A stretch of 64,000 nucleotides of DNA from Rhodoblastus sp. 17X3 (GTDB lineage: Bacteria > Pseudomonadota > Alphaproteobacteria > Rhizobiales > Beijerinckiaceae), in contig NZ_JASHHX010000004.1 in assembly GCF_030056575.1 (NCBI RefSeq), forward strand, positions 62,001 to 126,000, read 5' to 3'. A program made the position numbers and the translations under genes. A model generated the notes under the pieces. The model ran no database searches and was not told the origin of the DNA. It was given only the letters and a program-made list of their open reading frames with translations. Position 1 is the first letter of the stretch. Every line of letters begins with the position of its first letter. Positions 19,168 through 52,231 of the stretch are shown piece after piece.

Positions 19168-19875
19168 TCAAGCCTTCTTGCCGAATTCCGAGGCGCCGCC
19201 ATGGGCGGCGGACCATTCCGCCGGGGCGTGCAGAAATTTTTCTACCTCGTCCAGCGTCGCGTCGGGCAAATATTTGGTGTCGCGCGCCACTTTCAGCACG
19301 TCCCACCAGGTGGTGAGCTGGTGCAGCTCGATGCCGTCCTTGCGCAACTCCGCCCGCGCCTGTGGGAAGATGTCATAAAAGAAGAACACGAAGGTATGGT
19401 CGCATTTCTGGCCGGCCTCGCGCAGCGCGGAGCAGAAATTGACCTTGGAGGCGCCGTCGGTGGCGAGGTCCTCGACCAGCAGGGTGCGGGCGCCGTCGGT
19501 CACTTCGCCCTCGATGCGGGCGTTGCGGCCAAAGCCTTTGGGCTTCTTGCGGACATATTGCATCGGCAGGCCGAGGCGGTCGGAAATCCAGGCCGCGAAG
19601 GGAATGCCCGCCGTCTCGCCGCCGGCGATGATGTCCAGGCTCTCATAGCCGATCTCGCGCTGGATGGTCTTCACCGCGAAATCGAGCAGCACGCTGCGCA
19701 GGCGCGGGAAGGCGATCAGCTTGCGCATGTCGGTATAGACCGGGCTGGCCCAGCCCGAGGTAAAGATGAAGGGCTTTTCCGAATTGAACAGGACGGCGCC
19801 GACCTCAAGCAGCATTTTGGCCGTTTCTTCGGCGATGAGCTGCTTTTCCAGCGCGGCGGGGGACAGGTCGGACAT
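19168..19875 (-). CDS. pyrE: Orotate phosphoribosyltransferase PyrE
   Basis: A 235-residue type I phosphoribosyltransferase. The PRPP-binding motif is [14 protein letters not shown] near residue 130, and [17 protein letters not shown] near residue 86 is the second conserved loop. It converts orotate and PRPP to OMP in pyrimidine synthesis. It is divergent from rarA with about 108 bp between starts. Confidence 0.94.
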
Positions 19876-19983
19876 GCGGGATTCCTTTCGCGGACGGCCT
19901 GATTAGAGCCGGAAGCCCCGCGTCGTCAATCGCGGGTTCGCCACACGGCTTGCTCCTTGGCGTGAGACGCGCGAAAAAGGCGC

Positions 19984-20774
19984 ATGACCGATCTCTTCGC
20001 CAGCGCCGGACTGGAGCGGGACGCGCCGCGTCCGCTGGCCGAGCGGCTGCGCCCGAAAAACCTGGCTGAAGTGGCGGGGCAGGACCATCTGCTCGGTCCC
20101 AATGGCGCGCTGACCCGGCTGATCGAATCAGGCTCGCTCGGGAGCCTGATCTTCTGGGGGCCGCCCGGCACGGGCAAGACCACGGTCGCGCGACTGCTGG
20201 CGCATGAGACGAAGCTCAACTTCGTCCAGGCCTCGGCGATTTTCTCCGGCGTCGGCGAGCTGAAGAAGATTTTCGATGAGGCCCGCGCGCGCCGCCGCGT
20301 GGGGCAGGGCACGCTGCTGTTCATCGACGAAATCCATCGCTTCAACCGCGCCCAGCAGGATTCCTTCCTGCCGGTGATGGAAGACGGCACCGTCACCCTG
20401 ATCGGGGCCACCACCGAAAATCCGTCCTTCGAGCTGAACGCGGCATTGCTGTCGCGCGCCCGCGTGCTGACCTTTCACAGTCTCGACGTGGCGGCGATCG
20501 AGAAATTGCTGGAGCGCGCGGAGGAGGCCGAGGGCAGGCCGCTGCCGCTTGACGCCGAAGCCCGCGCCAGCCTCGCGATGATGGCGGATGGCGACGGCCG
20601 CGCCGCCCTGACCCTGGTGGAGGAAATTTTCCGCGCCGCCCGGCCTGGCGAGATGTTCGACGCCCGATCATTGAGCGAGATCGTCCAGCGCCGGGCGCCG
20701 ATTTATGACAAGGGGCAGGAGGGCCATTACAATCTCATCAGCGCCCTGCACAAGACCGTGCGCGGCTCGGACCC
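19984..20774 (+). pseudogene. rarA: RarA (MgsA) AAA+ recombination factor, 5' part interrupted by an island
   Basis: The first 263 codons of RarA are intact: [22 protein letters not shown], Walker [17 protein letters not shown] (about residues 56-71), Walker [17 protein letters not shown] and sensor 1 [14 protein letters not shown]. The frame meets the island after HKTVRGSD and reads on into 23 foreign residues to a stop at 20844, losing the tetramerisation/helical C-terminal domains. The missing part lies at 51681-52205; joining 20774 to 51686 restores R-G-S-D-P-D-A-A-L in frame. RarA acts at stalled replication forks with SSB and the clamp loader. Confidence 0.95.
20770..20774. repeat. Left copy of the 5-bp direct repeat (GACCC) flanking the island
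   Basis: GACCC occurs here and at 51681-51685, exactly at the two rarA/island junctions. It is either a target duplication or the crossover core of the attachment site. Confidence 0.85.
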
Positions 20775-20787
20775 TTTATCTCGACAG
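20775..20787 (+). repeat. Left terminal inverted repeat of the island
   Basis: TTTATCTCGACAG matches the complement of the right end (TTATCTTGACAG) at 11 of 12 aligned bases. A second inverted match, GTATCACTGCGT at 20807-20818, pairs with the complement of 51650-51661 (GTATCGCTGCGT). The gap between outer and inner repeats is 19 bp here and 7 bp at the right end. Confidence 0.8.
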
Positions 20788-20958
20788 TCTGTATGTATGG
20801 ACATTGGTATCACTGCGTCCCCCGTAGGACTCCAATTCCGTTGAATTCACAGGCCCGAGGCACTTCGTCGAACCTTGGTACGAGCTTTCGCAGCTGAGCC
20901 CCACGCTCTCGTATATGGTGGCGTCGGTTCCCGACAAATTAGAGCAGAGAAACGAGTC

Positions 20959-22257
20959 ATGAGCAGGAGCTCTTTGTTTGAGGTAGATGCGAAGCGCCCG
21001 CTTGCTGACAGGCTCCGACCCGCGGTTTTGACGGCGGTTGTTGGTCAGGATCATCTGCTTGGACCCGATGGACCTATAGGGCGCATGGTTGCGATCAATA
21101 CGCTGTCTTCGATGATCCTCTGGGGGCCGCCTGGAACCGGAAAGACAACCATTGCACGTCTGCTCGCATTGGCGACCGACCTGCACTTCGAGGCGATCTC
21201 CGCCATTCAGTCCGGCGTAGCCGACCTCCGTAAGGTTTTCGAGTCAGCCCGGCGACGTCAGGAAGCTGGATCGGGGACCTTGCTGTTTTGCGATGAGATC
21301 CATCGCTTCAACCGGGCGCAGCAGGACGCATTCCTGCCAGTGGTCGAGGATGGCGCCATTACCCTCGTAGGTGCGACGACCGAGAACCCCAGCTTCGAAC
21401 TAAACGGCGCGCTCCTGTCGCGGTGCCGGGTTTTCGTCCTGCGCCGGCTAGACGAACCAGCGTTGGAAACCCTTCTCTCGCGGGCCGAAGAATACATGCA
21501 GCAATCGCTACCGCTGACTCCGGAAGCTCGAACTGCGATGGTAGCACTTGCTAGCGGGGACGGGCGCTACCTACTGAATATGGCTGAGCAGATGTTCACG
21601 GTCGAAGCAAGTGAGCCGCTGAACGCCGTCGGCATGGGGCGCGTTCTTCAGAGGCGCGTGGCTACTCACGACAAGGCGGGGGACGCGCATTACGATCTGC
21701 TGAGCGCGTTCCACAAAAGTCTGCGCGGTTCCAGTCCCGATTCGGCCCTTTATTATGCTGCGCGGTTGATTGTAGGTGGCGAGGCGCCGGAGGCCTTATT
21801 TCGGCGGCTGCTGTGCGCCGCCTCCGAAGATGTGGGCACTGCCGACCCGAATGCCATGTTGCAAGTGATCGGAGCGTGGGACGCGTTTGAACGAGTGGGC
21901 TGGCCTGAGGGTAAGTTGTTCATGGCTCAAGCTATTTGCTATGTTGCTACTGCCCCAAAGTCAAACGCGTGCTATACGGCATTTTCTGCGGCGCTTGACT
22001 TAGCCGAGCGCACTTCTGAGCTTCGTCCGCCCTTAAGTGCCCTAAACGCACCGACTCAAATGATGAAGGAGATGGGATACCACAAAGGTTATATTTATGA
22101 TCACGATCAGCCGAACGCTTATGGCGCGAATGCATTATTTCCAGAAGCACTTGCAGAGCGTGGGGAACCAGAGTTCTATAAGCCTAACGAACGCGGGTTC
22201 GAGCGCGAGATTTTGAAGCGTCTCGCGTTCTGGGCAAAGCTCAAAGCTCAAAGCTGA
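20959..22257 (+). CDS. rarA: Second, complete RarA-like AAA+ protein carried by the island
   Basis: A 432-residue full-length Rar[26 protein letters not shown], Walker [18 protein letters not shown] (about residues 57-73), Walker [41 protein letters not shown], and the whole C-terminal part ([27 protein letters not shown]). It is clearly homologous to the host gene but divergent in protein and codon use, so it is not a recent duplicate. At the attachment position it reads CGCGGTTCCAGTCCCGAT, unlike the host site. It is placed first inside the left end, with 184 bp upstream for a promoter. It very likely replaces the activity lost by insertion. ATG at 20959 matches the family start. Confidence 0.93.
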
Positions 22258-22610
22258 AGTCGGTCGCAATTTTTTTTTACGTCGACAGCAAAGATCTTGA
22301 AGAGTGTTGTTATACTTGATGACAAAACAAGCTTATATATTGAACCTTGCCGACGCTAGGTTTGGGTTCGACCAAGCCGAAATCTTGAAGCTGCCCGAAA
22401 AGCAGCGCACCACTCTTAGCAGGAGCGCCCGCCCGCGCTTCCTATATAGCGCTGTAGGGCGGGCGCGATAGCACAATAGCTCCATGCAATTGATTGTTTA
22501 CAAGTGAGTTTCCGAAGACGTGCTGATTGGGACTCGTTGTTTGCACAACCTTGCGAAACTGCGATTGTAGAGTGCGGCAATTTGCAAAAGTAGTGTTTAC
22601 GAAATAGGGT
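22258..22610. other. Intergenic region with a large GC-rich hairpin
   Basis: There is no supportable gene here. GCGCCCGCCC (22425-22434) pairs with GGGCGGGCGC (22457-22466), and the loop contains a second stem GCGCT/AGCGC (22435-22439 with 22448-22452). It lies between the convergent rarA copy and an XRE-type regulator. It lacks a T-tract on either strand. Confidence 0.6.
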
Positions 22611-23087
22611 TCATTTTGTTTGATCATTTTTTCGCGACGCCGTGGCCATTGACATAAGTGCGTCGAGGTCGTTTCGGATTTTGAGGGCAGTTTTTTCTAT
22701 ATTGGAGATCATTTGCGCTTCTATAAAAGACTTCGTGCTTTCGTCGATAGTCGGCAAAGCCATCCCAATTATCAGCTTGTTGTCTATTATGTCGACCAAA
22801 ATACCTCGAGAAATTAGAGCGGCCTTGAGCGCAATGCAGGTGGTGATATCTGGCTCGCGTTTTCCTGTCTCAAGCGCGATAAGTGTGCGCCTAGAAATAT
22901 TGGCGGCATCTGCCAAGTCTGCTTGGGAAAGCTGAAGTAAGCCCCGCGATGCCCTAGAAATATAGGGCATCACAGTCTTTTCCAGTACGTACTGACGCGC
23001 TTCAGAGAACTCCGGAAGCCATCGCCACCAGGTGAAGGTTGACGGAGGTATGAGGGCGTTAACGTCGGCGTCTTTCATTTTTGCCAT
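22611..23087 (-). CDS. XRE-family DNA-binding protein
   Basis: A 158-residue protein with an HTH_3 domain in its middle (LLQLSQADLADAANISRRTLIALETGKREPD, about residues 52-82) and a C-terminal helical region (SFIEAQMISNIEKTALKIRNDLDALMSM). It is divergent from the recombinase genes with a short gap, so it probably controls them. ATG at 23087 was taken; a TTG at 23105 would add six residues. The ligand or partner is unknown. Confidence 0.8.
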   Translation of the reverse strand: MAKMKDADVNALIPPSTFTWWRWLPEFSEARQYVLEKTVMPYISRASRGLLQLSQADLADAANISRRTLIALETGKREPDITTCIALKAALISRGILVDIIDNKLIIGMALPTIDESTKSFIEAQMISNIEKTALKIRNDLDALMSMATASRKNDQTK

Positions 23088-23128
23088 GGATTCGCCATTG
23101 ACCAAAAGGTGACGAGCGACTGCGAATC

Positions 23129-24730
23129 ATGTACAAAAAGTGCAATCACCGTAGAGGGCCCAATGGCTTTGAGTCTGAGTTCTATCAATCAGCATACCAT
23201 TTTTTTTGCGAGACAAACGACATGGAGCTGTTCTTCACCAGGGCAAACAGGCTCGAACTCGCCATCTGCGTGGATGGAGAGCCGCTTATGGTCGAGGGGC
23301 GGCCCTACGTTCTTCCCAAGGATGCAAGGGTAGCGATGGAAGACGAAGTGGTCCCCGACGGCATGCCCTTTCTTCTCGGTGATGAAGGAGATTACGACAA
23401 GGTTATCAACAAGTTCTTCCGTGATCTGCCATTCTTGGGCTGCGGCTCCGTCAATACATGGCGAGCATACGCTCGCGACATCGTTACCTTTTGTCGCTTC
23501 CTTTCTGAACGTCGGGGCGGGAAACATTTGCTCAATGCCACGGTAGAGGACGTTCGGCAATACTATCGCACTCGGCGTTTGACCGGTCTCGCAGCGGTAG
23601 CCCCCGAGACGTGGAACCGCGGAGTGACCGCACTCCAGAAGTTCTTTGAATGGGCTTTGGAAGAGAAGCGGATTATCGCCGTTCCTTTCACATACAAGAC
23701 AGTTGTAATGCGGCGACCCGGTACAACTGCAACGCAGCCAGTCCAACACAACACGGCGCTTGAAAGGGTGGGAAGCGATGCCACGATCAAGTGCGTCAGC
23801 CTAGACGATTACATCGCTTTCCGGGACATCGGATTGCTGGGTTATTTGCCGGAGGGCGGCCTGGATCCGAATTTCCGCGGCCGCAATCGTCTTCGGAATG
23901 CGGCCTTCGCCGAACTCCTCGTCACCACTGGCATCCGGTTGGAAGAGGGAGGATCAATGTTGAAAGAAGAGACTCCGGACGCCGCCGAGAAAAAGTGGTT
24001 GGGTTTCCGAAGCTGCAAGATGCGCCTCGCCAAGCTCACTACCAAGGGGGATAAGGGAAGGCCCATCTGGGTTCCCAAGCGGGTGCTAAACGAGCATATC
24101 TACCCCTACATCCAGGAGGAGCGCGATAATGCGGTCTGCCGCGCGACCGATTGCGGGGCTTACGAGACCGTTCTAGATGCGCTCCACGTGTCCGCGTGGC
24201 GAAGGACCGGGTGCACCATCCAGCAAGCGGGTGGTCGAAGCCAAAAGATTCCTTACGATCAGCTTAGCCCCGGACAGCGGCGCCAGATGTTCTCGCTCGA
24301 CCACAACAAGCTCGTTGAGCCGGGTTGCCTTTGGCTGACAGAAACCGGAATGCCAACCGCGCTGAACAACTTCGAGGCGGTTTTCGCCAGGGCGTGCAAC
24401 AGGTGCCAGGGGTTCGGCATTGACCTGTGGATTACGCCGCATGTCCTTCGGCACACCTTCGCCGTCTACATGCTGAGCAATCTCATCAAAGGGGTCCTCG
24501 ACTGCAGCGAGGGGAAGTATCCTGGAAGTGGAGAGAGCGTTTACCGGAAGGTCATCTCCGATCCGCTCCGAAGCCTCCAGAGGATGCTGGGGCATGCTAG
24601 CATCACGACCACTTACAAGTACCTCACATACATCGAAGAATCGGAAGAGCAAATCGACGCCGCAGTCGGTAGCTGGGGCGACCGCCTTGGTTCGCCGTCT
24701 GATCATATTTACTCAGAGGAAGCAGCATGA
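23129..24730 (+). CDS. ginA: Tyrosine recombinase 1 of the trio (GinA-like)
   Basis: A 533-residue integrase. An N-terminal SAM-like core-binding part (NTWRAYARDIVTFCRFLSERRG, about residues 109-130) is followed by a catalytic domain with R270 (VTTGIRLEEGGSM), H438-x-x-R441 (PHVLRHTF), H489 (MLGHASITTTYKYL) and nucleophile Y498. All catalytic residues appear present. It is longer than phage integrases, as usual for this trio class. The start is uncertain (ATG 23129 or 23222). Its stop overlaps the next recombinase (ATGA). Confidence 0.9.
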   Translation: MYKKCNHRRGPNGFESEFYQSAYHFFCETNDMELFFTRANRLELAICVDGEPLMVEGRPYVLPKDARVAMEDEVVPDGMPFLLGDEGDYDKVINKFFRDLPFLGCGSVNTWRAYARDIVTFCRFLSERRGGKHLLNATVEDVRQYYRTRRLTGLAAVAPETWNRGVTALQKFFEWALEEKRIIAVPFTYKTVVMRRPGTTATQPVQHNTALERVGSDATIKCVSLDDYIAFRDIGLLGYLPEGGLDPNFRGRNRLRNAAFAELLVTTGIRLEEGGSMLKEETPDAAEKKWLGFRSCKMRLAKLTTKGDKGRPIWVPKRVLNEHIYPYIQEERDNAVCRATDCGAYETVLDALHVSAWRRTGCTIQQAGGRSQKIPYDQLSPGQRRQMFSLDHNKLVEPGCLWLTETGMPTALNNFEAVFARACNRCQGFGIDLWITPHVLRHTFAVYMLSNLIKGVLDCSEGKYPGSGESVYRKVISDPLRSLQRMLGHASITTTYKYLTYIEESEEQIDAAVGSWGDRLGSPSDHIYSEEAA

Positions 24731-26625
24731 CCGGGTCCGATTTCTCTCTTGGCCCCGGAGACTCAAAGGTCTCCCTGCACGATCGGCGGATGACATTTCC
24801 GGTTGTGCCGATTCCAGTAGAGAAACCCGACGCCACCTTCATCGGCACCAAGTTTACTGTCGTCTTTGAGGGAAATCGCAGCTACACCGTAAATCTGTCT
24901 GACCTTTCCAAACCGCCAATTGGAGGGTTAGTGCGGGACGCCATCCGAGTTCTGTGGGAGGAAAGCCAACCCCTCGGAGCCTATAAATCTCCTGGAGCAG
25001 TCAAGGACGCCGTGGCCATCGTGCGGTCATTCGCGCGCTTTGTAATCGAGACGGGATGCGCCGCCCGCATGACGGGACTGGCGGCTATTTCCGTCGCCGA
25101 TTTCGGGGCTTTCGAGGCATGGCTACGGCAGGGGAGCCCAAAAGAAAGCCCGCGACCCTATCAACGGATGGGTGACTTTCGCCAATTTATACTTTGCGCA
25201 CAACTGCGCGGCATGGCCTCGGGGGACATCGCTCACCGATTAGGCTACATCGCGGACGGTCCAACTTACAGCGAGAACCAGGGCAAGCGGGATGCTTACA
25301 GCCCGCGCGTTGCTCAACAAGTGCGCGAAGGCGCCTGGCAAGATATTGAGGCTGCGGTTAAGCGCATTACCATTGACGGGCCCAGCTTGGCTGCGGCCGG
25401 AGAAGACCCGGAACTGAAAAACTGCTGGTCGGACAGCAACGTCGCGTGGGCCATTGCGAGCCAAGGTCTGACCGTCTTGCGCGACAATATGATTTTCTCT
25501 CGCCGCGTCAGGGACATGAGCGGTGACCTGACACAATACGATCTCCTCGGGTTGTTCCACCTGGACCTAGCGGACGCGTTCGTAATATCGACGCTATTGT
25601 CACTCGAGACGGGGCTGCCGATCGAGAGCGTCGAGGGTCTCAAGGTCGACTGTCTGCAGAACGAGGCCAGGGGCTACGCTGATCTCCGGTACGTCAAGCG
25701 CCGCGGGGGCGCGATTACCGAAAAATCCAAGCGGGTCAAGGTAGAAGGCACCAAGTCGCCAGGTGCGCTCATTAAAATTGTGCTTCGCTTGACCCAGACG
25801 ACGCGGAAGTTCTGTTCTGCTGAGGTTGCGCAGTGGCTGCTCGTCGGGTGCGTCGCGCGGCGTGATGCCAATGGCAGCTCCTTCCGCCACCTGAAGCCTC
25901 GTAATAGCCAGTTCGCGGACCGGTTCTGTGCCCGGCACGCGATTGTAGATGACAAGCTCGCGCCGATTAAGACAGTTGCGCGGGTCAGCATGCGCAAGAC
26001 GTTCAAGGCGGCCCAATACAAAAAGGCGAACGGCCATCTCGCCGACGCCGCCGACGACCACACGAAGTCGGTGCACGCCAACCATTACGCCAACATTCCC
26101 GCGCTGGCCGATGTCCATGAGGCCACGATTGCTGCCGGACTAGAGCAGGCGCTGGCCAGCGCTATGGCGCCAACGATTCTCGCCGAAGCCGACGAGAGAC
26201 GATTCACTGCTGACCCGACCGGCTTGGCAGCGGACCGAGGTCTTTCCGAGGATGATATCCGTGCGGTGGCCGATGGCGAAGGAGATGTGTGGCTGGCCAC
26301 TTGTCTAGGCTACCACGATTCGCCTTTCGCGGCGCCCGGTGAGAATTGTTGCCCCTGCCCAGTCTGGGGATGTTTATCCTGTAAGAACGCCGTGATCACC
26401 ACGTCCAAGTTGCCTGCCGTCATTGCGTTCTTGAACCATATCCTCCAGCGGCGCCAAGAGATGGACCTCCGCGCGTGGATTGCGCGCTTCGCGGAGGCGT
26501 ACCACCGCATCACCAAGGACATTCTGCCTCGGTTTCCTGAGCGCGAAGTTGTGTTGGCCAGAGCAATTGCTGCCGCCGACGTAGAGCTCGTCTGGCTGCC
26601 TGCCGAATTCACCATGACCGTGTGA
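24727..26625 (+). CDS. ginB: Tyrosine recombinase 2 of the trio (GinB-like), degenerate active site
   Basis: A 632-residue protein with the integrase layout: core-binding region about residues 65-180 and catalytic domain about 260-480. At the first arginine position it has TGLPIESVEGL (proline), and the HxxR box reads VSMRKTF with serine in place of histidine. HANHYANIP could provide a late His/Tyr pair. A C-terminal extension holds a cysteine cluster (ENCCPCPVWGCLSCK) suggestive of metal binding. It is coupled to GinA by ATGA and followed by GinC after three bases. It may have a structural rather than strand-cleaving role. Confidence 0.85.
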   Translation: MTGSDFSLGPGDSKVSLHDRRMTFPVVPIPVEKPDATFIGTKFTVVFEGNRSYTVNLSDLSKPPIGGLVRDAIRVLWEESQPLGAYKSPGAVKDAVAIVRSFARFVIETGCAARMTGLAAISVADFGAFEAWLRQGSPKESPRPYQRMGDFRQFILCAQLRGMASGDIAHRLGYIADGPTYSENQGKRDAYSPRVAQQVREGAWQDIEAAVKRITIDGPSLAAAGEDPELKNCWSDSNVAWAIASQGLTVLRDNMIFSRRVRDMSGDLTQYDLLGLFHLDLADAFVISTLLSLETGLPIESVEGLKVDCLQNEARGYADLRYVKRRGGAITEKSKRVKVEGTKSPGALIKIVLRLTQTTRKFCSAEVAQWLLVGCVARRDANGSSFRHLKPRNSQFADRFCARHAIVDDKLAPIKTVARVSMRKTFKAAQYKKANGHLADAADDHTKSVHANHYANIPALADVHEATIAAGLEQALASAMAPTILAEADERRFTADPTGLAADRGLSEDDIRAVADGEGDVWLATCLGYHDSPFAAPGENCCPCPVWGCLSCKNAVITTSKLPAVIAFLNHILQRRQEMDLRAWIARFAEAYHRITKDILPRFPEREVVLARAIAAADVELVWLPAEFTMTV

Positions 26626-26628: not shown

Positions 26629-28728
26629 ATGCAATACTTTGCGGCCGATCTTCAATTACTTCAATCCAAACATTGGTCCGACGACGCGCCGGTTCTGCCA
26701 GAGAACAAGTTCCTGGACGATAAGCCTGACGCTCCAAGGCCGCGATTCGGAGAGGAGCAATGGAACCTGATTGGCGCCATAGCGAGGAATAATATTTCAG
26801 ATCGTCGTTGCGTCGCTGACTTCACGAATTTCTCAGACCCCGTGCGACGACTCACGGTTAAAGAACTCGCCATGCAGAGGCTCAACACACCGATCGCCTC
26901 CCTTTACAGCAAACCGGGCTGCATGGATCCAGTATCGGTTCGTGCCTTGATCATGAATCTTCGCAAGTTCTTCAGATTTATGGATAAACTAAACGTCAAA
27001 AGACTATTGGATATAACTCAAGATAATCTTAATAATTATTTAAAGATACTTAATGATTCCAGTACGAACAAAAGTACGATGCAAAAAAATATTGTTGTAA
27101 TTTATTGGCTGCACGACGCGCGCGACTTTTTGTCCTTCGATTGGGTCCCGTTCAAGCCTTGGGGCGGCATCCCGCCGCATAAGGTCGTCGGCGGAAAAAA
27201 GAATAGCGAAAATAAAACTCCACGCATCCCTGAGGAAACAATGGGGCCGCTGCTACGGTGGGCCCTGTTATATGTAGAGCGGTTTTCAAACGACATCATT
27301 GACGCATCCAGAGTCTACGGGGATCAAGTAGGCGGGACAATTCTTACTGCCAAGAGGACCAGCCTGAACGAATACAGGTTGAAGCTGGAGTCATGGCTAG
27401 AGGACTGCCGCCGATCAGGAAAAAGGCTACCTGGTCATGCGGGCGATCACCCCGAGCTAAACATTCTCCGTATCGCTAAATTGTCGGGGCTGCCCAACCA
27501 AGCGGCTTATAAGCTCCGGCTTCGCCTTGAGGCGGCAATCCCGACACTCGGGATCGACAATGGAAGGATACCAGTGGCTGTTTCTGTTCTTCCAGAGACC
27601 GGAAAACCTTGGCGCGGTGACTTCACCGAGTGGGACGTTTTGAGCGAGTGCAAGGCTCTGATCACAGCCTGCTACATCGTCTGCGCTTACCTTTCGGGGA
27701 TGCGGGACGGCGAGGTTCAGGACATACGGCGCGGGGCATATAGGCCGACACGAGACGAAACTGGGCAGATCATACGTCACAAGGTCGTCAGCCGGCGGTC
27801 CAAAGGCCGCGCTATAAAGCGGACCTGGGTAATCATTGAACCAGTGGCAAAAGCCATAGAAGTCATGGAGCAGCTGACGCAAACCATGCTGCCATCCGTA
27901 AGACGAAGCAACTTTCTGTTCGTGCAAATTCGCCCGAAGTCTTCCAACCCCACTCTTAAGGCGATGATCAATGTCTACATCGGGAAGTTCATCAAGACTA
28001 TCAATAGCCAAACTCAGCCGCGTCTCGTTAAGCTTGGAATCCCCGCCATCTCGGTAGGCACTTCGGATGATCCTATCAAGATCACCACCCGAATGTTCCG
28101 ACGCACCGTGGCGTGGCACATCGCCAACCGCCCGTTTGGCGTGGTGGCGGGAATGATCCAGTATGGGCACGCCTGCGAGATTACGTTCGAAGGTTACGCA
28201 GGCAGCTCAGAGAGCGGCTTTCGTGCCGAGGTTGAAGCCGAACGGGAAACCGCACGACGCATCGACATCCTCGAAATCTACGAGGACTATAAGCGAGGCG
28301 TAAAGCCTGCAGGCCCGATGTCAACGGAACTTGAGGCGGAGTTCAAAAACATCAGAGAGCAGCTCGGTGACTTTCGAGGGAAGATTGTAGACGATCGACG
28401 CCGCATGAAGATGCTAGAGCATCTGCGCATCCGCCTCTTCCCCGGCATGATGGCGGACTGCTTTTTTGAACCGAAGGACGCGGCCTGCTTGAGTCATCTC
28501 AAGGAGAAAGACCGCAAGCAACCGGTTGCAGGCATATGTGACCCGAACTGCCGCAATGCCTGCTGGCTGAAGAAGCACTTATCCGTTTGGGAGGGGAGCC
28601 TTGCCGATGTGCAGCGGCTGGCCGCCCGAAACCGCATCTCCCCCATCCAGAGAAAGATTCTGCGGGACAAGGCCAAGGAGTACAGGGCGGGTATCACCAG
28701 CATCCGGGAGGCTTGCCATGCCGGTTAA
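26629..28728 (+). CDS. ginC: Tyrosine recombinase 3 of the trio (GinC-like)
   Basis: A 699-residue recombinase. The catalytic domain shows AYLSGMRDGEVQDIRR (Arg I near residue 357), MFRRTVAWHIA (Arg II, with arginine where HxxR has histidine) and GHACEITFEGYAG (late His and candidate Tyr). A C-terminal cysteine motif (CDPNCRNACWLKKHLSVWEG) resembles that in the second recombinase. Codons about 115-160 are strikingly AT-rich compared with the rest. Its 3' end overlaps the small fourth gene by 11 bp. Confidence 0.88.
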   Translation: MQYFAADLQLLQSKHWSDDAPVLPENKFLDDKPDAPRPRFGEEQWNLIGAIARNNISDRRCVADFTNFSDPVRRLTVKELAMQRLNTPIASLYSKPGCMDPVSVRALIMNLRKFFRFMDKLNVKRLLDITQDNLNNYLKILNDSSTNKSTMQKNIVVIYWLHDARDFLSFDWVPFKPWGGIPPHKVVGGKKNSENKTPRIPEETMGPLLRWALLYVERFSNDIIDASRVYGDQVGGTILTAKRTSLNEYRLKLESWLEDCRRSGKRLPGHAGDHPELNILRIAKLSGLPNQAAYKLRLRLEAAIPTLGIDNGRIPVAVSVLPETGKPWRGDFTEWDVLSECKALITACYIVCAYLSGMRDGEVQDIRRGAYRPTRDETGQIIRHKVVSRRSKGRAIKRTWVIIEPVAKAIEVMEQLTQTMLPSVRRSNFLFVQIRPKSSNPTLKAMINVYIGKFIKTINSQTQPRLVKLGIPAISVGTSDDPIKITTRMFRRTVAWHIANRPFGVVAGMIQYGHACEITFEGYAGSSESGFRAEVEAERETARRIDILEIYEDYKRGVKPAGPMSTELEAEFKNIREQLGDFRGKIVDDRRRMKMLEHLRIRLFPGMMADCFFEPKDAACLSHLKEKDRKQPVAGICDPNCRNACWLKKHLSVWEGSLADVQRLAARNRISPIQRKILRDKAKEYRAGITSIREACHAG

Positions 28729-29134
28729 CAGGGAGAATGCGGAGGCGCTTCGGGCCGCCATGACCACTATGCTAGCCATGGCGGAAGAGGACGGGTTCCG
28801 TTCCCTGACCTGGAACAACGTTTGCGCTACGGCGGGAGTGCCAAGGGCCACCGCGTCTCGGGCCATAGACATTATCGCGGAGTGGAAGGCCTCTGTCGCT
28901 GCCTTAAGGAGTCAAGCGGCATCCCCGAAGGAGCGCGGGCCAACGTCCTCCATCGAGCACAAAGCGGCGCGGGATGCCGTGATCATTGCGGCGCTCCGGC
29001 AGACGGTGCGAACAATGGGGGACCATATCCAAGCGCTGACGCTCGCGCTGGCCAAGAAAGACGCGTTGATTGCTACCCTCAAGGGCGAAAGCGGCCGCGA
29101 CATCGTCATCATGCCGGTCGACAGGCGCTCATGA
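28718..29134 (+). CDS. ginD: Small HTH/coiled-coil protein of the recombinase operon (GinD/TnpC-like)
   Basis: A 138-residue protein. Residues about 28-50 read as a helix-turn-helix (TWNNVCATAGVPRATASRAI), and the C-terminal half is a long charged helix (AALRQTVRTMGDHIQALTLALAKKDALIATL). Tn554 TnpC and GInt GinD are of this size and place. ATG at 28718 lies inside the ginC end, consistent with coupling. It probably assists synapsis or directionality; this is inferred from its relatives. Confidence 0.78.
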   Translation: MPVNRENAEALRAAMTTMLAMAEEDGFRSLTWNNVCATAGVPRATASRAIDIIAEWKASVAALRSQAASPKERGPTSSIEHKAARDAVIIAALRQTVRTMGDHIQALTLALAKKDALIATLKGESGRDIVIMPVDRRS

Positions 29135-29489
29135 CCGCGTCGTTAAGCCCAAACTTCGTGGCCGTAATCGACCTTTCCTTGAGGCTAAGGACCGGGCGTG
29201 GCAGGCGTCGCCGGCGAAACACTGCAAGGCGGCGTCCGAGTGGCAACTGGCATTTCAGCGACAGCTCGTCGACCGTGAAATTCGCTGAGGGTGGCAGATA
29301 TTTTGGGGTTTGCGCCGATTTTGCGTATTCGTTTTCGCAAGGTTTTTCGTCGTGATCGCACAAAAGCTTGCGAATTCGCGCGCTGGCGCGCGCGAAGCCT
29401 TTCCCCGGCGGCCGCGGCCGCCAAGCGCGCTCATCGGACAGTGGATGCTCCCGACGCGCTCGCGCGCTGTCGGGAAACTATTGGCGCAA
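29135..29489. other. Region between ginD and an IS remnant
   Basis: No convincing gene. An ORF of 74 codons at 29131-29355 overlaps the ginD stop as ATGA, but its arginine-rich, low-complexity translation matches nothing I know. A self-complementary GC run (GCGCGCTGGCGCGCGC, about 29378-29393) lies near the IS remnant. Confidence 0.35.
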
Positions 29490-29944
29490 AAGCCTGAAGA
29501 CACCGACAAGCTCTACGCCTTGCACTCGCCCGAGGTCGAGTGCATCGGCAAGGGCATGGCCGTCACCAACGCCCGCGCCGCCGGCGGCCAGTTCGTGCTC
29601 GGCGCCCTGGCCCGTCCCGGCAACCCTTATGACGGCCATACCCTTGCCGACCAGATCGCCCAGGTCGGATCACGGGCGTAAAAATCAAGCGCGTCTACGT
29701 CGACCGCGGCTATCGCGGCCACAAGCATTCTGGCCCCGCCTAGGTCTATGTGTCGCATACGAGAGGCATCGCTTCGCCGACGATTCGACGAGAGCTCAGA
29801 CGCCGCAACGCCATCGAGCCAGTGATCGGCCATCTCAAAAGCGACGGGCTGCTTGAGCGCAATCATCTGAAGGGCGCAAAAGGCGACGCGATCAACGCCA
29901 TCCTGTGCGCTGCCGGGCACAATCTCCGCCTGCTGCTGGCCTAG
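29490..29944 (+). pseudogene. IS5-type DDE transposase remnant
   Basis: Broken frames encode recognisable pieces of an IS5-superfamily transposase: KLYALHSPEVECIGKG, GNPYDGHTLADQIAQV, RVYVDRGYRGHKHSG and AIEPVIGHLKSDGLLERNHLKG...AGHNLRLLL. There is an internal deletion after ECIGKG, a frameshift near 29670 and an in-frame TAG at about 29742, and no N-terminal half. No terminal inverted repeats were seen. It is a dead insertion, likely a relic of island assembly. Confidence 0.8.
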
Positions 29945-30308
29945 CTCAGGACTTTGCGCCTCGCCATCATCGTCCTCGTCGTGAGTCTAAACGCCGACGA
30001 GCCATCCCCACGTCACGTTCTCCCGGTGGCCTGACGTCGAAAAACGCAAAGCTCTTCAAGCCGCAGAACAGCACGATTGTCCGATCGTGGTGGGCATTTA
30101 TTGCGGACCGTTTTTCATGGGTCTTGGCGAAGGCCGCGCGCATCAGATATCCGCCCGAGGCCTTGCAAAATACCACGCCGACAGCGACGACGGCCGCGCC
30201 CTTTTTGGCATGTGCTCGCTTCGGCCCGTTTCGCCGGGAATCCTTAGCTTGACAGTTTCCCCGCCATGGCTTTGCGTCGCACCGATTTCACTCGTCGAGG
30301 CTGGTCGC
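29945..30308. other. Intergenic region upstream of the Ntn-hydrolase gene
   Basis: There is no supportable gene. The frame of the next gene stays open back to 30087 but the translation there is low quality. TTGACA at 30249-30254 could be a -35 box for the next gene, but I see no matching -10. Confidence 0.35.
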
Positions 30309-31187: not shown

Positions 31188-31672
31188 GCCAAATGGTGCG
31201 CATGGCCGCTCGAAATCGCGAAAAAGCAAAGGCCGCTCAGGATTGCTCCCTCGCGACCTTTGAGCCCGTAGCAAGCTAGGGGTGGGTGATGCTCATGTTA
31301 TGGCGCAGCTGCCGAAAAATTAAAGGCGAAGCCGCCAGCGCAACCGTTTTTTGACGGGTGTTTCGCAGCGCCAGACTCCGCACAATAGGCTCACTTTATG
31401 TTCGAACGGCCGGGCTGCCGCGCGCGAGATGCGAAAAACCATCGCGCCGACCAGGACCAAAAACCCGACAAAAAAGCAATTATTCAGCTGTAGAACTTGG
31501 CGCAACCTGCCCGCAAAAGGCAAGCCACCAGCGGTAAGAACGAAATGAAAACAAGTTGCTTGCGCCGCGCCCGCAGGAATGGCTATGACTCACGTAAGAA
31601 CGAAAGCGAAATTGATATTCAAGAAAATGGCCGGTCAAAAACAAAAGATTGCCCCCGGACGAGGAATTGCTG
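31188..31672. promoter_or_regulatory. Putative control region of the defence operon with a direct repeat
   Basis: A 485-bp region without a convincing gene. GTAAGAACGAAA occurs at 31534-31545 and again at 31594-31605, exactly 60 bp apart, just before the helicase gene. Such spaced repeats could bind a regulator. I could not assign promoter boxes. Confidence 0.4.
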
Positions 31673-34600
31673 ATGAAGGCTTTCGAATTTGACCACCAAC
31701 TGATCGACACATACGCTCGATTTTCCCGGTCCTTCAGCACTATCCGGTCCCCCGACATCGCCGAAGAAATCAATCGCCAGTATGACGCTGGCCGATTCTG
31801 GCCGGACGCTTTGCTCTCGCTCAACCCGCGATTCCTGCCAGGACCGACCATCGACGACCTCGTCGCCTCCGGCGATCTCGACGAAGCCACCGGGAAAATC
31901 TTCCGATTCGGCGCCGATCCGCTGCGTTTTCACCGCCACCAGGGACAAGCGATCGCGAAGGCCCGCGCCGGGCAGAGTTATGTCGTCACCACCGGCACCG
32001 GTTCGGGCAAGTCGCTCTGCTTCTTCGTTCCGATCGTCGACGCCATCTTGCGCGCCCGCAAGGCGGGACGGCCACGGCGGACAAGCGCCATCATCGTCTA
32101 TCCGATGAACGCGCTCGCCAACAGCCAGATCAAGGAGATAGAGAAATTCATCTCCCAGTCCGGCCTGGCTGATGACATCAAGCCCGTCGTGCGGCGCTAC
32201 ACCGGCCAGGAAAGCCAGGAGGAGAGGCAACGCATCGCCGCCAATCCGCCCGATATCCTGCTGACCAACTTCATGATGGCCGAACTGCTGCTAACCCGTC
32301 AGGACGACCTCGACGCCAAGGTCGTCGATAACGCCAGCGGCCTCGAGTTCCTCGTGCTCGACGAACTCCACACCTACCGCGGCCGTCAGGGCGCCGATGT
32401 GGCAATCCTCGTCCGTCGGCTCCGCAACCGCTGCGCGCTCGACAAACCCCTGATTTGCATTGGCACATCAGCGACGATGGCCAGCGAAGGCTCGGATACG
32501 CGCCGGGCCCAGGCCGTCGCCGACGTGGCTTCTCGCCTATTCGGCGCAGCGATCGGTCCAGACGCGGTCATCGACGAATCGCTCGACCGGGCGACCGACG
32601 ACCGGCTCACTCTCTCCGACATACGTCCCAAGCTCGCCCAAGCTCTGACCAGTGATCTCCCCGACGACTTGTCTGACGCCGTACTGAAGCGGCATCCACT
32701 CGCGATTTGGGCGGAGCTGGCGATTGGTCTCGACGACGGCCAGACCCTCAAACGCAAGAAGCCCATTCCGTTCGAGGTAGCCGTCCAGCTGCTCTCCGAC
32801 GACAGCGGCGTCGCCGTCGACATCTGTCGGACCAGCTTCGAACAATTTCTGACGCGCGTCAGCCTGCCGGAAACAGAAAGAGGCGGCCTGGGCGCGGCGG
32901 CGTTCATTGCTTTCAAGCTGCACCGGTTTATTTCCGGCGCCGGCGAAATCTACACGACTTTGGCCGCCCGCCCGCGCCGCGTCCTGTTCGACGGCCAGCT
33001 CGAGGATCCTGAAGCGCCCGGTAATCGGCTCTATCCGACCCGCTTCTGCCGTGAATGCGGACAAGAGGTCCATGTCGTCACCAAGCTCCAGGACGACGAC
33101 GGCGTGCGCTTTCTGCCGCGCAGCATCGACGACACTCCCATTGATGGCGACGAGAGCGAAGTCGCGGGCTACTTGACGCCGACGGCAAATGGCGATCCGA
33201 ACTACGTCTTCGACGGCACGATCGACAATTATCCCGAAGACTGGCGCGAGGAACGCGGCGGAATCGAACGTCTGCGCAGCAACCGAAAGGGCCGCGAGCC
33301 GGTCATGATGACGGTCGCCACCGACGGACGGTACGACACGTCAGGGCGGCCGTTCTGGTTCATCCCCGGCAAGTTCGGCTTCTGCCCCTGTTGCCAGCAC
33401 CAGCCGGTGTCCGGGATGCGCGAACGCAGCAAGCTCGCCGGCCTGTCCGGCGAAGGCAGAAGCTCGGCGACAACCCTGCTCGTTTCGACCGCCCTCGAAT
33501 GGATGAACAGACCGGAAAGCGGCGTTCCACAACAAAAGCGCAAGCTGCTCGGCTTCACCGACAACCGCCAGGACGCTGCATTGCAGGCCGGCCATTTCAA
33601 CGATTATCTTTTCGTCAGCCTTTTGCGCGGCGCGATCTTGCGCGCGGTCCTCGACGCCGGCGAAAGCGGCATGACCGAGGACGAATTCGGACTGCGCGTC
33701 GTCAGGGCGCTCGGCTTCACCGCCGCCAACAAGGAGGCCCGCATCCACTGGATGCTGGACCACGAGGCCGGCGCCGTCGTGCGTGAGGACGCGCAGCGCG
33801 CATTGCAGAAGGTCATCGCCCATCGGGTATGGACCGACCTGCGCCGTGGCTGGCGGTTCACCAATCCGAGCCTGTCGGTGCTCAAGCTCATCGATGTCGA
33901 ATTCATAGGACTCGACGACATCGCCGGCGACCTCGAAAGCCTCGTGGCGATCCTGCCCGATTTCGCCAATCTCGACCTCGACAAGCGCAAGAAGACGCTC
34001 AAGGATATTCTAAGCGCCATGCTCGAAGGCCTCGCTGTCGGCACCGAAGCGCTCGACCTGACTGTGCTCGACACCGTCGCCCAGAAATCCCGCAACCTGC
34101 TACGTGCCCCGTGGGCCATCGACCAAAAGGAAAATCCACGCAGCCGGACCAACCTGCACCTACAAGCACCCACCGTCGGTTTGCGCGAGGAGCAGACCAT
34201 CCTGCGCGGCGGCCACAATTCGCGCATCGCCCGCCTCGTCAACCGCAAGAGTATTCTCGGCGTCAAACTCAAGAGGGATGACTACCTCGCCTTCATGACA
34301 GGCCTGCTCCAACTCTTCGCGCGCGAAGGCCTTGTCACGGCAGTCGACGTCGAGGCCGACCAGCAAGGCTGGCGGCTGTCGCCGTCCGCCGTGCGCATTG
34401 TGCCCGGCGAGGCCGTGCGCAACGGTGGCGCGCAGGGCAACCGTTATTTCCATGAGCTCTACAACGCCATTGCCGAAGACCTAAAACAGGGGCGCAGCTC
34501 TTTCTGGGGGCTCGAAGGCCGCGAACACACGGCGCAAGTGTCGCAAAAACAGCGCGAATGGCGCGAATGGCGCTTCCGCTTTGAAGACGACGACCGTAAG

Positions 34601-36835
34601 AACCTCAAGGACAACATCGCCGAGATCAAAGCAGCGGGCGAATCCGACCAGTTCCTGCCAGCGCTGTTTTGCTCGCCGACCATGGAGCTCGGCGTCGACA
34701 TCTCAGCGCTCAACGCGGTCTATTTACGCAATGTGCCGCCGACGCCAGCCAACTATGCGCAACGGGCGGGTCGCGCCGGCCGCTCGGGCCAGGCGGCGTC
34801 GATCATCACCTATTGCGCCGCCCAGTCGCCGCACGACCAGTATTTCTTCGAGCGGCGCAACGAGATGGTGGTTGGCGTCGTGCGGCCTCCCGCGCTCGAC
34901 ATCACCAACGAAGAGCTCGTCCGTTCACACCTTCACGCCGTCTGGCTCGCCGAGGCGAAACTCGCGCTATCGCCAGACATTCCTGAGATTCTCGACCTCA
35001 AGCAGCCCGATTTCCCGCTCAAGCAGAAGGTCGTCGAAATCATCGACCAACCGTACCTGGCGACGCGGGCGGTCGCACCCATGCAGCGCGTGCTGGACCA
35101 AATCCTGGCGTCGGTCGGAGGTCGTCCGCCGGCATGGCTGGCCGACCGCACTGACTTCGTGCGCGAGGTCGCGACTGCGGCGCCCAAAGAGTTCGACCGC
35201 GCCTTCGATCGCTGGCGCGAACTTTACAACTCTGCGCGCACCCAGCTGACGACAGCCAACGCCCAGTCTGAGATCACCGGTCTTTCGGGAGCGGACCGCC
35301 GCAAGATCAAGGCCGCGCAGATGCAGGCGAGCGACCAGATCGCGATCCTCGAGCAGGGCAAGGCGACCAGCGGTTCGGACTTCTACTCATACCGCTATCT
35401 CGCAACCGAGGGCTTCCTGCCGGGCTACAATTTCCCGAGGTTGCCGCTCTACGCCTTCATCCCGGGCGAAGGCAGGCAGGGCGCTTTCCTGCAGCGCGCG
35501 CGATTCCTTGCGATCGCGGAGTTTGGGCCCCGCAGTCTGATCTACCACGAGGGCCGCGCCTATCGCGTCATGAAGGCCAAGCTCCCGCCGGAAGTGCGAA
35601 CCGGCGATGGTTCCGAACTCGCGACCAAGGATATCTATATTTGTCCGAACTGCGGCGCGTGCCATGAAGGCAGCGTCGAGCGCTGCCATGCCTGCAATGG
35701 CCCCATGGCTGGCGAAGATCCTGTCAAAGGCACGCTGCGCATCGACAACGTCGAGGCCGCCCCCACCGAGCGGATCACCGCCAACGACGAGGAGCGTGTG
35801 CGCCAGGGCTTCGAGATCCAGACAGTCTTCGCTTGGCCGAGAAAGAATGGTCGCGTCCAGGTCACGGAGGGCGACTTCCGATGCGATGACGTGTCCATCT
35901 TGGCGCTGCAATATGCGAACAGCGCAGAGATCAGCCGCATCAACAAAGGCCTGAAGCGCCGGAAGAACCAGACCGTCTATGGCTTCAACATCGACTCGCG
36001 CACTGGCTACTGGGCGAAATCGGACGACGAAGATCCTGACGTAGACCTGCCGCCCGACGTCGAGCGGCCGGTTCGCATCGTGCCGATCGTGCGCGACCGC
36101 AAGAACGCCCTTCACATCCGGTTCAGGGAGCCCGAAGCCTACGAACCGTCGACGATCGCCACCGTGCAGCACGCACTGATGCGCGGCATCGAAGTCGTCT
36201 ACCAGCTTGAAGAGGGTGAGATCCTGGGAGAGCCTTTGCCCTCGCGAGGCGACCGTCGCGCCATCCTGACCTATGAGGCGACCGAAGGAGGCGCCGGCGT
36301 TCTCAACCGGCTCGTCGAAGACCCAGACGCAATCGGCAAGATTGCACGCGAAGCCCTCAAATTGATGCACTTCGACAAGGTCGACGAGGCGATCGCCGCC
36401 GGCGACGCCAGCCTTTTGGTTGACCACGAACACGAAGCTTGCGTGCGCGGCTGCTACCGCTGCCTGCTCTCCTATTTCAACCAGCCCGATCACGAATTGA
36501 TCGACCGCATCAGCCCCGAGGCCAAACAACTGCTCGTCGATTTGGCGCGCGGCCAAGTCGTGCTGGCGGCGCCAGGCCCGCGGCCGGAATCGCCCGACGG
36601 CTGGCGGGCCGCCTTCAACGATGCGGGCATTCCCGACCCCGATGCCGACGCCGTCCAATTCGCGGATCAATCCATGGATTACGTCTGGCGCAGCCATTTC
36701 GTGGCGGCCTGTAAGGCGCCGATCGGCGACACGGCGCGCAACATCGCCGAGAGCAAAGGTTGGACGGTTTTCGAATTGCCCGCGAACCCGTCTGAAAACA
36801 TCCCCGCGGCAATGATTCTGAGCCTGACGGAATGA
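31673..36835 (+). CDS. DEAD/DEAH helicase with C-terminal DUF1998 (MZB) domain, DruE/DrmA-DrmB-like
   Basis: A 1720-residue SF2 helicase. Walker A is VTTGTGSGKSLCFFVP (about residues 104-119), the DEAH-like box is LVLDELHTYRGRQGAD (about 225-240), and the helicase C-domain has SPTMELGVDISALN and QRAGRAGRSGQ (about 1000-1040). Cysteine pairs occur at CRECGQ and CPNCGACHEGSVERCHAC, and the end carries the DUF1998 signature EATEGGAGVLNRL and CVRGCYRCLLSYFNQPDH. Size and layout match Druantia DruE or a fusion of DISARM DrmA with DrmB. ATG at 31673 has GAGG nine bases upstream; a TTG at 31649 is less likely. First gene of a seven-gene run. Confidence 0.85.
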   Translation: MKAFEFDHQLIDTYARFSRSFSTIRSPDIAEEINRQYDAGRFWPDALLSLNPRFLPGPTIDDLVASGDLDEATGKIFRFGADPLRFHRHQGQAIAKARAGQSYVVTTGTGSGKSLCFFVPIVDAILRARKAGRPRRTSAIIVYPMNALANSQIKEIEKFISQSGLADDIKPVVRRYTGQESQEERQRIAANPPDILLTNFMMAELLLTRQDDLDAKVVDNASGLEFLVLDELHTYRGRQGADVAILVRRLRNRCALDKPLICIGTSATMASEGSDTRRAQAVADVASRLFGAAIGPDAVIDESLDRATDDRLTLSDIRPKLAQALTSDLPDDLSDAVLKRHPLAIWAELAIGLDDGQTLKRKKPIPFEVAVQLLSDDSGVAVDICRTSFEQFLTRVSLPETERGGLGAAAFIAFKLHRFISGAGEIYTTLAARPRRVLFDGQLEDPEAPGNRLYPTRFCRECGQEVHVVTKLQDDDGVRFLPRSIDDTPIDGDESEVAGYLTPTANGDPNYVFDGTIDNYPEDWREERGGIERLRSNRKGREPVMMTVATDGRYDTSGRPFWFIPGKFGFCPCCQHQPVSGMRERSKLAGLSGEGRSSATTLLVSTALEWMNRPESGVPQQKRKLLGFTDNRQDAALQAGHFNDYLFVSLLRGAILRAVLDAGESGMTEDEFGLRVVRALGFTAANKEARIHWMLDHEAGAVVREDAQRALQKVIAHRVWTDLRRGWRFTNPSLSVLKLIDVEFIGLDDIAGDLESLVAILPDFANLDLDKRKKTLKDILSAMLEGLAVGTEALDLTVLDTVAQKSRNLLRAPWAIDQKENPRSRTNLHLQAPTVGLREEQTILRGGHNSRIARLVNRKSILGVKLKRDDYLAFMTGLLQLFAREGLVTAVDVEADQQGWRLSPSAVRIVPGEAVRNGGAQGNRYFHELYNAIAEDLKQGRSSFWGLEGREHTAQVSQKQREWREWRFRFEDDDRKNLKDNIAEIKAAGESDQFLPALFCSPTMELGVDISALNAVYLRNVPPTPANYAQRAGRAGRSGQAASIITYCAAQSPHDQYFFERRNEMVVGVVRPPALDITNEELVRSHLHAVWLAEAKLALSPDIPEILDLKQPDFPLKQKVVEIIDQPYLATRAVAPMQRVLDQILASVGGRPPAWLADRTDFVREVATAAPKEFDRAFDRWRELYNSARTQLTTANAQSEITGLSGADRRKIKAAQMQASDQIAILEQGKATSGSDFYSYRYLATEGFLPGYNFPRLPLYAFIPGEGRQGAFLQRARFLAIAEFGPRSLIYHEGRAYRVMKAKLPPEVRTGDGSELATKDIYICPNCGACHEGSVERCHACNGPMAGEDPVKGTLRIDNVEAAPTERITANDEERVRQGFEIQTVFAWPRKNGRVQVTEGDFRCDDVSILALQYANSAEISRINKGLKRRKNQTVYGFNIDSRTGYWAKSDDEDPDVDLPPDVERPVRIVPIVRDRKNALHIRFREPEAYEPSTIATVQHALMRGIEVVYQLEEGEILGEPLPSRGDRRAILTYEATEGGAGVLNRLVEDPDAIGKIAREALKLMHFDKVDEAIAAGDASLLVDHEHEACVRGCYRCLLSYFNQPDHELIDRISPEAKQLLVDLARGQVVLAAPGPRPESPDGWRAAFNDAGIPDPDADAVQFADQSMDYVWRSHFVAACKAPIGDTARNIAESKGWTVFELPANPSENIPAAMILSLTE

Positions 36836-36839
36836 CCCA

Positions 36840-39605: not shown

Positions 39606-39608
39606 GTC

Positions 39609-43526: not shown

Positions 43527-44308
43527 TGATCGAGACCCCTCAATCCTTCATCGTCCGCCAAGAATGCGACAAGGCCACGTTCCAGAACGGCTACCGCAAA
43601 CCCCAAGGCGAAACGGCGGGCTGGGTGGCCTATGGTTCGACGACAGCGCACGGCACGATCCATCTCGCCGCCAGCGGCCCGAACGGCCCGTGGTTCCTGG
43701 CGCTCGACCACGCCGGCGTCATACAGGAATTGAACCTGTCCAAATTGGACATGCCCGGCCCCGGCCTCGCCCGCTATGCCTTCGACACCCTCGGCGCGCT
43801 CTATAAGATTCTGCCTCGGATCTACAGGTTGGCGGTCAGCCTCCCTGATGCGCCACTTCTCGCCTTCCAGGCGAAGGTCAAGGACCTGCCGAAAACCACC
43901 GAGGCCGAGCGATTGATCGTCCAGCGAGTCGGACAGGACATTTTCCGCGCGGCGCTAGACAATTATTGGGGCGGCGCCTGCGCCATCACGGGCATCACCG
44001 ACCGCGCCCTCCTTCGCGCCAGCCACATCAAACGCTGGGCGGATTGCAAGACGGACGAAGAGCGCCTCGACGTCCACAACGGCATCCTTCTCGCCGCCCA
44101 TTACGATGCCGCTTTCGACGCCGCGCTGATCACCTTCGCGAAGGATGCAAAGCTGCTCTATTCGCTGCACCTCAGTTCAGACGCGGTCGCGCTGCTGACA
44201 CCGCCAGCCGCGATTATGTTCAGACTTTCCGACGAACATCAGCGATACCTCGACCATCATCGCATACGGTTTGCCGCGCTGAACGACGCTGCGAAGGCCG
44301 AAAAATGA
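43523..44308 (+). CDS. HNH endonuclease
   Basis: A 261-residue protein. The C-terminal HNH_2 domain reads GACAITGITDRALLRASHIKRW...DVHNGILLAAHYDAAFD, with the histidine of SHIK, the asparagine of HNG and the downstream aspartate typical of this nuclease subgroup. The N-terminal half (residues 1-135) is an uncharacterised domain. It is coupled to the methyltransferase (ATGA) and to the small gene after it. A nuclease encoded directly with a methylase suggests the cleavage arm of the system; this is inference. Confidence 0.85.
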   Translation: MMIETPQSFIVRQECDKATFQNGYRKPQGETAGWVAYGSTTAHGTIHLAASGPNGPWFLALDHAGVIQELNLSKLDMPGPGLARYAFDTLGALYKILPRIYRLAVSLPDAPLLAFQAKVKDLPKTTEAERLIVQRVGQDIFRAALDNYWGGACAITGITDRALLRASHIKRWADCKTDEERLDVHNGILLAAHYDAAFDAALITFAKDAKLLYSLHLSSDAVALLTPPAAIMFRLSDEHQRYLDHHRIRFAALNDAAKAEK

Positions 44309-44580: not shown

Positions 44581-44600
44581 TTTTTCGAAGAGGTGGGGGG

Positions 44601-45665: not shown

Positions 45666-45667
45666 CA

Positions 45668-46465: not shown

Positions 46466-46562
46466 CTGATTTGGCCCGAGAACCATTCTCCATCCGGCTT
46501 AGGGAATAATCTCAATGCTCGCGCAGGCACTGGCCTGACGTATCGGCGAGCGCGACGGTAGT

Positions 46563-48782: not shown

Positions 48783-48790
48783 TTATCCGA

Positions 48791-52205: not shown

Positions 52206-52231
52206 GTACGCGGGTTTGGGAGAAGTGTGGC

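Follow-up and report, generated by a model that had tools for sequence, protein, structure and literature searches.

An island that breaks rarA in Rhodoblastus sp. 17X3 carries a complete foreign rarA just inside its left end

We found that an island of 30,906 bp has inserted precisely into the host gene rarA of Rhodoblastus sp. 17X3, and that the first gene inside its left end is a complete rarA which, by its phylogeny and codon use, is of foreign origin, from an Acetobacteraceae-like source. The window analysed is the whole stretch of 64,000 nucleotides from contig NZ_JASHHX010000004.1 (positions 62,001 to 126,000, forward strand), and coordinates are those of the window. Mobile elements usually avoid harm by using tRNA genes or gene ends as landing sites, or by restoring the end that they remove; islands in dusA limit damage by restoring a gene end. 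The best reading of the present arrangement is that the island probably compensates for its own insertion, in that it breaks rarA and the carried foreign rarA would replace the host RarA. The broken gene and the limits of the island are as follows.

19984 to 20774, + strand: N-terminal part of host rarA; the frame continues 23 codons into the island to a stop at 20842-20844
20770 to 20774: left copy of the crossover repeat, GACCC (GACCCT with the next base)
20775 to 51680: island, 30,906 bp, within host rarA, defined by the empty site in two congeners and the inverted terminal motif
20776 to 20787, + strand: left terminal motif TTATCTCGACAG, with an exact counterpart before ginA in the related element L016
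51669 to 51680, - strand: right terminal motif TTATCTTGACAG, inverted
51681 to 51685: right copy of the crossover repeat, GACCC (GACCCC with the next base)
51681 to 52193, + strand: C-terminal part of host rarA, 3' limit approximate

Two congeners (L233 and L234) have an uninterrupted rarA and thereby provide the empty site. In L233 the sequences that match window positions 19983-20774 and 51681-52192 lie side by side and share five bases, GACCC, and L234 gives the same picture; the ten congeners listed have one RarA match each, with E-values typical of whole genes. An assembly error was rejected as the cause of the split, since the insertion lies inside a contig of 226,923 bases, is bounded by inverted terminal motifs and has an exact empty site in congeners. 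The TTATCTYGACAG motif is inverted at the island ends and occurs exactly at only two places in the window, while 8 sites with up to two mismatches were found versus 4.0 expected. Among 105 relative genomes, the terminal motif with up to one mismatch was present in 17 and the exact motif only in the window's own genome; as a control, the motif read backwards was found in 5 of the genomes listed. If the island ends were joined as a circle, two 12-bp arms would flank a 6-bp centre, GACCCT, and the empty host site has GACCCC; the crossover repeat comprises 5 exact bases, or 6 with one mismatch. The arms and the 6-bp centre presumably form a tyrosine-recombinase core site, and the island would insert site-specifically and break rarA at the codons for Asp-Pro (residues 259-260, numbered as in the carried protein) within the conserved motif RGSDPDAALYY. 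The last 680 bp of the island have a GC content of 0.525 versus 0.591 for the whole island. Directly after the C-terminal part of rarA, about 3.9 kb of the window (52205-56153, with chloride channel and matrixin genes) are absent from L234 and L233.

The left part of the island contains the carried gene and the recombinase operon.

20959 to 22257, + strand: carried rarA, 432 aa, complete and uninterrupted, foreign; first gene inside the left end
22277 to 22288, + strand: terminus-like TTACGTCGACAG, a weak match that may be due to chance
22611 to 23105, - strand: gene for an HTH regulator-like protein, lying between rarA and ginA; matches a Y4mF/HipB-type antitoxin model at E 1.4e-7, which is below the cut-off
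23129 to 24730, + strand: ginA-like tyrosine recombinase gene; phage-integrase domain
24727 to 26625, + strand: ginB-like gene, 44% to the Azospirillum oryzae element
26629 to 28728, + strand: ginC-like gene, 45% to the Azospirillum oryzae element
28718 to 29134, + strand: small ginD-like gene, start approximate; 40% over 145 aa to an Azospirillum oryzae gene, E 3e-24

The initial annotation had described a complete rarA homologue at this place that diverges from the host gene in protein and codon use, and both points, as well as the coordinates given, were borne out. The frame is intact, and its product carries all three RarA domains, AAA, AAA_assoc_2 and MgsA_C, the last aligned over positions 1-164 of its 167. 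E. coli RarA (3pvs) matches the carried protein across residues 7-427, nearly end to end (E 1.6e-117). The GDGR motif and the usual RarA/AAA motifs, with the names and roles that we take them to have, are retained, and the catalytic motifs are ordinary. The carried protein is 56% identical to the host N-terminal piece (260 columns) and 47% identical to the C-terminal piece (210 columns). Measured against five host genes, the carried gene has a codon distance of 0.50 and the host N-terminal piece one of 0.27, and GC3 is 0.62 in the carried gene, 0.63-0.69 in the gin genes and 0.85 in the host N-terminal piece. A RarA search of the whole genome (4.18 Mb, 68 contigs) gave five matches, namely the carried gene, the two halves of the host gene and two weak AAA matches (E 6e-8 and 6e-5).

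The RarA tree was built from 92 sequences, comprising 85 RarAs not chosen by a pattern that requires Asp, six named ones and the carried one. The carried protein falls into a clade of four rows with Rubritepida and two Pseudoroseomonas (SH-aLRT 98), separate from the host's genus and from almost every row of the host's family. It is 70% identical to the Rubritepida protein and 53-57% identical to those of G802, G836, G862 and G1049, the four congeners for which identity was printed. In this tree it clusters with chromosomal-type RarAs of Acetobacteraceae/Roseomonadaceae and not with any island-borne RarA; to our knowledge, there is no island-borne RarA for comparison. The dN/dS of the carried gene against Rubritepida, its nearest relative, is 0.11, with dS saturated. 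For the host pieces against congeners the ratio is 0.10-0.14, the same as for intact congeners among themselves, and extra decay of the pieces, sought as a clock by this comparison with congeners, was not seen. Given this lack of extra decay, the insertion could be recent, in which case the carried gene would be untried by selection in this host; or else the insertion may not yet be marked by decay of the host pieces.

In G1003, a genome of the host's family, the surroundings of rarA (L227, 7804-9084) are like those of a rarA locus from the same genus (L235). Its RarA lies in the next larger clade beyond that of the carried protein, with Acetobacteraceae-type neighbours and a long branch, as if the gene had been replaced. 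Near-identical RarAs (branch 0.05) are encoded on an Aeromonas caviae plasmid (L167, 5998-7311) and in genome G847 (L229, 7790-9055); the plasmid, a conjugative one, has nhaA, uvrA and a MobH relaxase gene in the vicinity, and G847, which belongs to the host's family, has this RarA as its second. By their sequences, these two are a separate mobile RarA lineage. Four genomes from a single genus of the host's family (G1127, G1152, G1211 and G1227) have a main rarA and further RarA-like genes whose products are 34-38% identical to the carried one, and a viral contig (L165:335-787) is RarA-like for the first ~150 residues only, followed by unrelated sequence in the same frame.

The ATG of the carried rarA is 114 nt past the premature stop of the broken host gene, in the same direction. 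No terminator-like site was found on the + strand between 20782 and 20959, and thus transcription of host rarA could reach the carried gene. A scan for promoter-like matches in 19700-23200 found no promoter belonging to the carried rarA itself; it returned 2 matches on both strands versus 1.1 expected, and the only one on the + strand (20705-20733, inside the host N-terminal piece) is at chance level. According to the mechanism that we propose, the element would offset the damage by bringing in an entire rarA of Acetobacteraceae-like origin, placed first at its left end and oriented like the host gene. Transcripts from the host rarA promoter would run through the truncated gene and onward to the carried ATG, and the carried gene is perhaps expressed in this way. 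The carried copy, altered at the crossover, would be spared from insertion by its own element. E. coli can do without rarA, and the island may therefore have little damage to make good.

The position of the carried gene was compared with the corresponding position in related elements. In all seven relatives (L013, L014, L015, L016, L168, L169 and L171), the inferred left terminus is 143-374 bp before ginA, where the terminus of L016 is an exact motif and those of the other six were chosen by their common sequence and with two or three mismatches, and where the distances for L014, L015 and L016 were taken to the start of the GinA match and not to the start codon. Since L015 and L168 are nearly identical at the terminus, these represent about six independent relatives; an eighth trio (L170), whose locus starts 145 bp before ginA, was left out. 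In the window the terminus is 2,353 bp before ginA, and the added block consists of rarA and the HTH gene. The gene content of islands is varied, and 110 of 72,556 plasmid records, some of them chromosome-sized, contain a RarA match at 1e-30, so rarA could have been picked up by chance among other genes, unlinked to the broken gene. However, the one gene that matches the broken gene is the first inside the end, is in the same direction and occupies a place that is empty in 7/7 relatives, and a rough estimate (one rarA per ~4,000 genes, ~20 cargo genes, one end, one direction) puts the odds at ~1 in 10,000. We consider chance acquisition very unlikely, and we infer that selection rather than chance placed rarA at the left end.

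The relatives also show whether elements of this kind generally bring their target gene. In L016 the terminus breaks ardC inside the metallopeptidase domain, with no second ardC copy at that end, and thus elements of this family do not regularly bring their target along. Comparing the ORFs within 6 kb before ginA with one another in each of the seven relatives gave one weak pair only (L016, E 9e-5). Going by these loci, carrying an orthologue of the target is particular to the rarA island among the elements seen. A tandem radC before the trio on a Pukyongiella plasmid was rejected as a second case, since the second gene is without a RadC domain (Pfam) and both genes look like plasmid backbone.

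The initial annotation had further proposed that the carried gene differs at the position equivalent to the attachment site, and it does. At the crossover the carried gene reads AGTCCC, in contrast to GACCCT and GACCCC at the island junctions, and residue 259 is Ser (codon AGT) in place of an otherwise constant Asp, which is present in 85 of the 85 comparison RarAs, many of them the best matches to the carried protein in each search and not a random sample. These 85 are the ones not found by the Asp-demanding pattern among 179 full-length RarAs (176 distinct) obtained by tblastn on fetched loci. Ser259 is one of five unusual residues of the carried protein (S199, S259, S353, E354 and A390) at 104 near-invariant columns, and thus the probability that one of them coincides with the crossover by chance is ~5%. 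Because the carried copy differs at the crossover, the island should not insert into its own copy, and the change is suggestive of self-immunity. Exact GACCC occurs in 22 of the 85 native rarA genes and is absent from the other 63, so a protein change is unnecessary for immunity, which silent changes could also give.

Besides chance, two other accounts of the arrangement were weighed against self-compensation. The element may have resided beside rarA in an Acetobacteraceae-like donor, where faulty excision from an upstream site took rarA along and its usefulness was secondary. Such passive capture is suggested by the terminus-like TTACGTCGACAG, 20 nt after the stop of the carried gene, and by the GInts described at gene 3' ends, among them that of a duplicated gene for ribonucleotide reductase in P. 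aeruginosa, but TTACGTCGACAG has 2 mismatches and ~4 such sites are expected per window. The account also leaves unexplained why the new insertion is again inside rarA, and we regard it as unlikely. RarA acts at stalled forks, and the element could instead take over this function by removing the host RarA and installing a variant that acts differently on replication, recombination or its own maintenance. The divergence of the carried protein and its five unusual residues are consistent with a takeover, and with the host protein gone no mixed oligomers would form, a benefit that Rapa et al. put forward in the case of RecA. However, nothing observed points to altered activity, the catalytic motifs are ordinary, and plain replacement accounts for the layout equally well, which makes a takeover quite unlikely in our view. 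Self-compensation is hence the reading that we prefer.

The carried rarA and the HTH gene are followed by an operon that resembles the recombinase operons of GInts. The ginA-like product conserves R270, K306, H438xxR441, H489 and Y498, which we take to be catalytic residues, and its best match is on an Azospirillum oryzae plasmid (52%). Relatives of GinB and GinC stand in the same order beside relatives of GinA, and the ginABCD arrangement at one end agrees in order, sizes and homology with like operons on plasmids. GinB and GinC gave no Pfam or NCBIfam match and no hhalign link to GinA, and their AlphaFold models were poor (mean pLDDT 37 and 40, respectively). As GinB and GinC are not demonstrable as recombinases, we term the element GInt-like and not GInt. 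GinA relatives were found in 221 and GinC-like proteins in 238 of 72,556 plasmid records, many of which are alphaproteobacterial or actinobacterial. In genomes, GinA relatives were found in 6 of 397 of the host's order (the window's own included, and two of them short and weak), in 2 of 82 of the family around G051 (one being the A. oryzae plasmid element, identical over 20 kb, and one weaker) and in 1 of 289 of the class, which is the window's own. No GinC relative was found among 385 genomes of the class beyond the window's own, and of 10 stretches of genome contigs that fit a pattern, none encodes a relative of the GinA protein. Window positions 29150-30300, after ginD, contain broken frames that look by eye like the remains of insertion sequences. 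The rest of the island is occupied largely by cargo.

31649 to 49957: cargo, with DruE-like helicase, DpdE, DrmMI/type IIG-like methylase, HNH, metallo-beta-lactamase-fold and E2/E1/JAB proteins

DpdE is near full-length (E 1.8e-186), and the region also encodes an LmuA/PDC-M48B-like protein and an E2/E1/JAB fusion, which suggests that the cargo is probably devoted to anti-phage defence.

We searched for further islands in rarA. A RarA match was obtained in 117 of 119 and 376 of 392 genomes of the host's family (two draws with a large overlap), and with four candidates scored per genome no other island in rarA was found in the 392, the present one being the only rarA island found. Re-examination of 13 genomes with odd, multiple or partial matches revealed none with a split rarA and a carried copy. 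In G1149, G807 and G782, rarA is in pieces at contig ends or at what look like contig ends, and G794, G1005, G1032, G1038, G1059 and G1072 have partial or frame-broken RarA matches; a hidden insertion is possible in any of these nine. A junction-pattern scan of genome contigs gave at least 117 loci. In the 117 listed, Gln, His or Ser replaces the expected Asp and the RarA reading frame continues over the residues shown (at most 33, with two loci ending earlier), so the gene is not interrupted there; interrupted copies may occur among further loci. A tighter junction pattern gave no match in viral contigs. In the open-licence literature, judged on the best-ranked matches of long lists, we found no description of a rarA-borne island with a rarA of its own.

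The layout itself has a precedent in two Vibrio islands. RME of V. cholerae S24 is described as an element of 32,787 bp that interrupts recA after 494 bp and has a divergent but complete recA at one of its ends; it excises, and the carried recA is functional and protective in E. coli (PMC4405046). VpRME of V. parahaemolyticus 090-96, of ~30 kb, is at position 491 of recA with a 6-bp overlap, and its annotation gives a truncated RecA at 75858-76382 (+) followed by a complete RecA at 76558-77607 (+), with a gap of 175 nt (PMC4334540). As far as these descriptions go, all three are islands of ~30 kb inside a recombination-repair gene, with a complete divergent copy just inside one end and short terminal inverted repeats, and in VpRME, as in the rarA island, the complete copy comes after the truncated part in the same direction, the gaps being 175 and 114 nt. 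They differ in that the target is rarA and not recA, and the Vibrio hosts are Gammaproteobacteria. In addition, the integrase of RME and VpRME is placed toward the far end from recA, whereas the ginABCD-like operon adjoins the carried rarA. Excision and function are reported for RME, while the rarA island is known from sequence alone. The earlier claim of a self-compensating insertion thus stands as regards the intact foreign orthologue, its place as first gene in the same direction, the changed crossover and the place left empty in seven relatives; as an idea it is not new, in view of the Vibrio recA islands.

Like the GInts as described (PMC5385486), the rarA island has a single clear tyrosine recombinase gene that is followed by two large genes, a small ginD and cargo, and it has a short crossover overlap. 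In contrast, the published GInt structure places nothing before ginA, where the rarA island has 2,353 bp with rarA and the HTH gene (PMC5385486). GInts are given imperfect direct repeats of 10-17 nt, and the repeat found here has 5 exact bases, or 6 with one mismatch. A GInt is further expected to have tyrosine recombinases in GinA, GinB and GinC, of which GinA is clear here, and a short AT-rich 3' end, for which the lower GC content of the last 680 bp (0.525) was noted. A survey reports no GInt ginC-ginD blocks in Alphaproteobacteria in its account (PMC10214605). The same work describes SEs, strand-biased circularizing elements that likewise have several recombinase-like genes at one end; these are set apart by that description, as they consist of intA-tfp-intB-srap genes, were detected only in Gammaproteobacteria and have no carried target gene mentioned in it (PMC10214605). 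As in the dusA islands, the insertion is in a protein-coding gene (PMC4482086), but the host rarA stays broken mid-gene and a whole second gene is brought.

Taken together, the target gene, the host class, the recombinase operon and the carried gene beside this operon are new in the rarA island, and the layout is as in the Vibrio recA islands. It is conceivable, though doubtful, that placing an insertion-proof foreign orthologue in the path of the host promoter is a general strategy that has evolved repeatedly, with the Vibrio recA islands and the present rarA island as two independent inventions and the host RarA swapped for the element's variant. A second target gene, combined with another recombinase operon in an identical layout, would make a curiosity a repeatable rule; the island lends itself to a simple test of how elements spare their own copy, and it would show a direct route for swapping core repair genes between bacterial orders.
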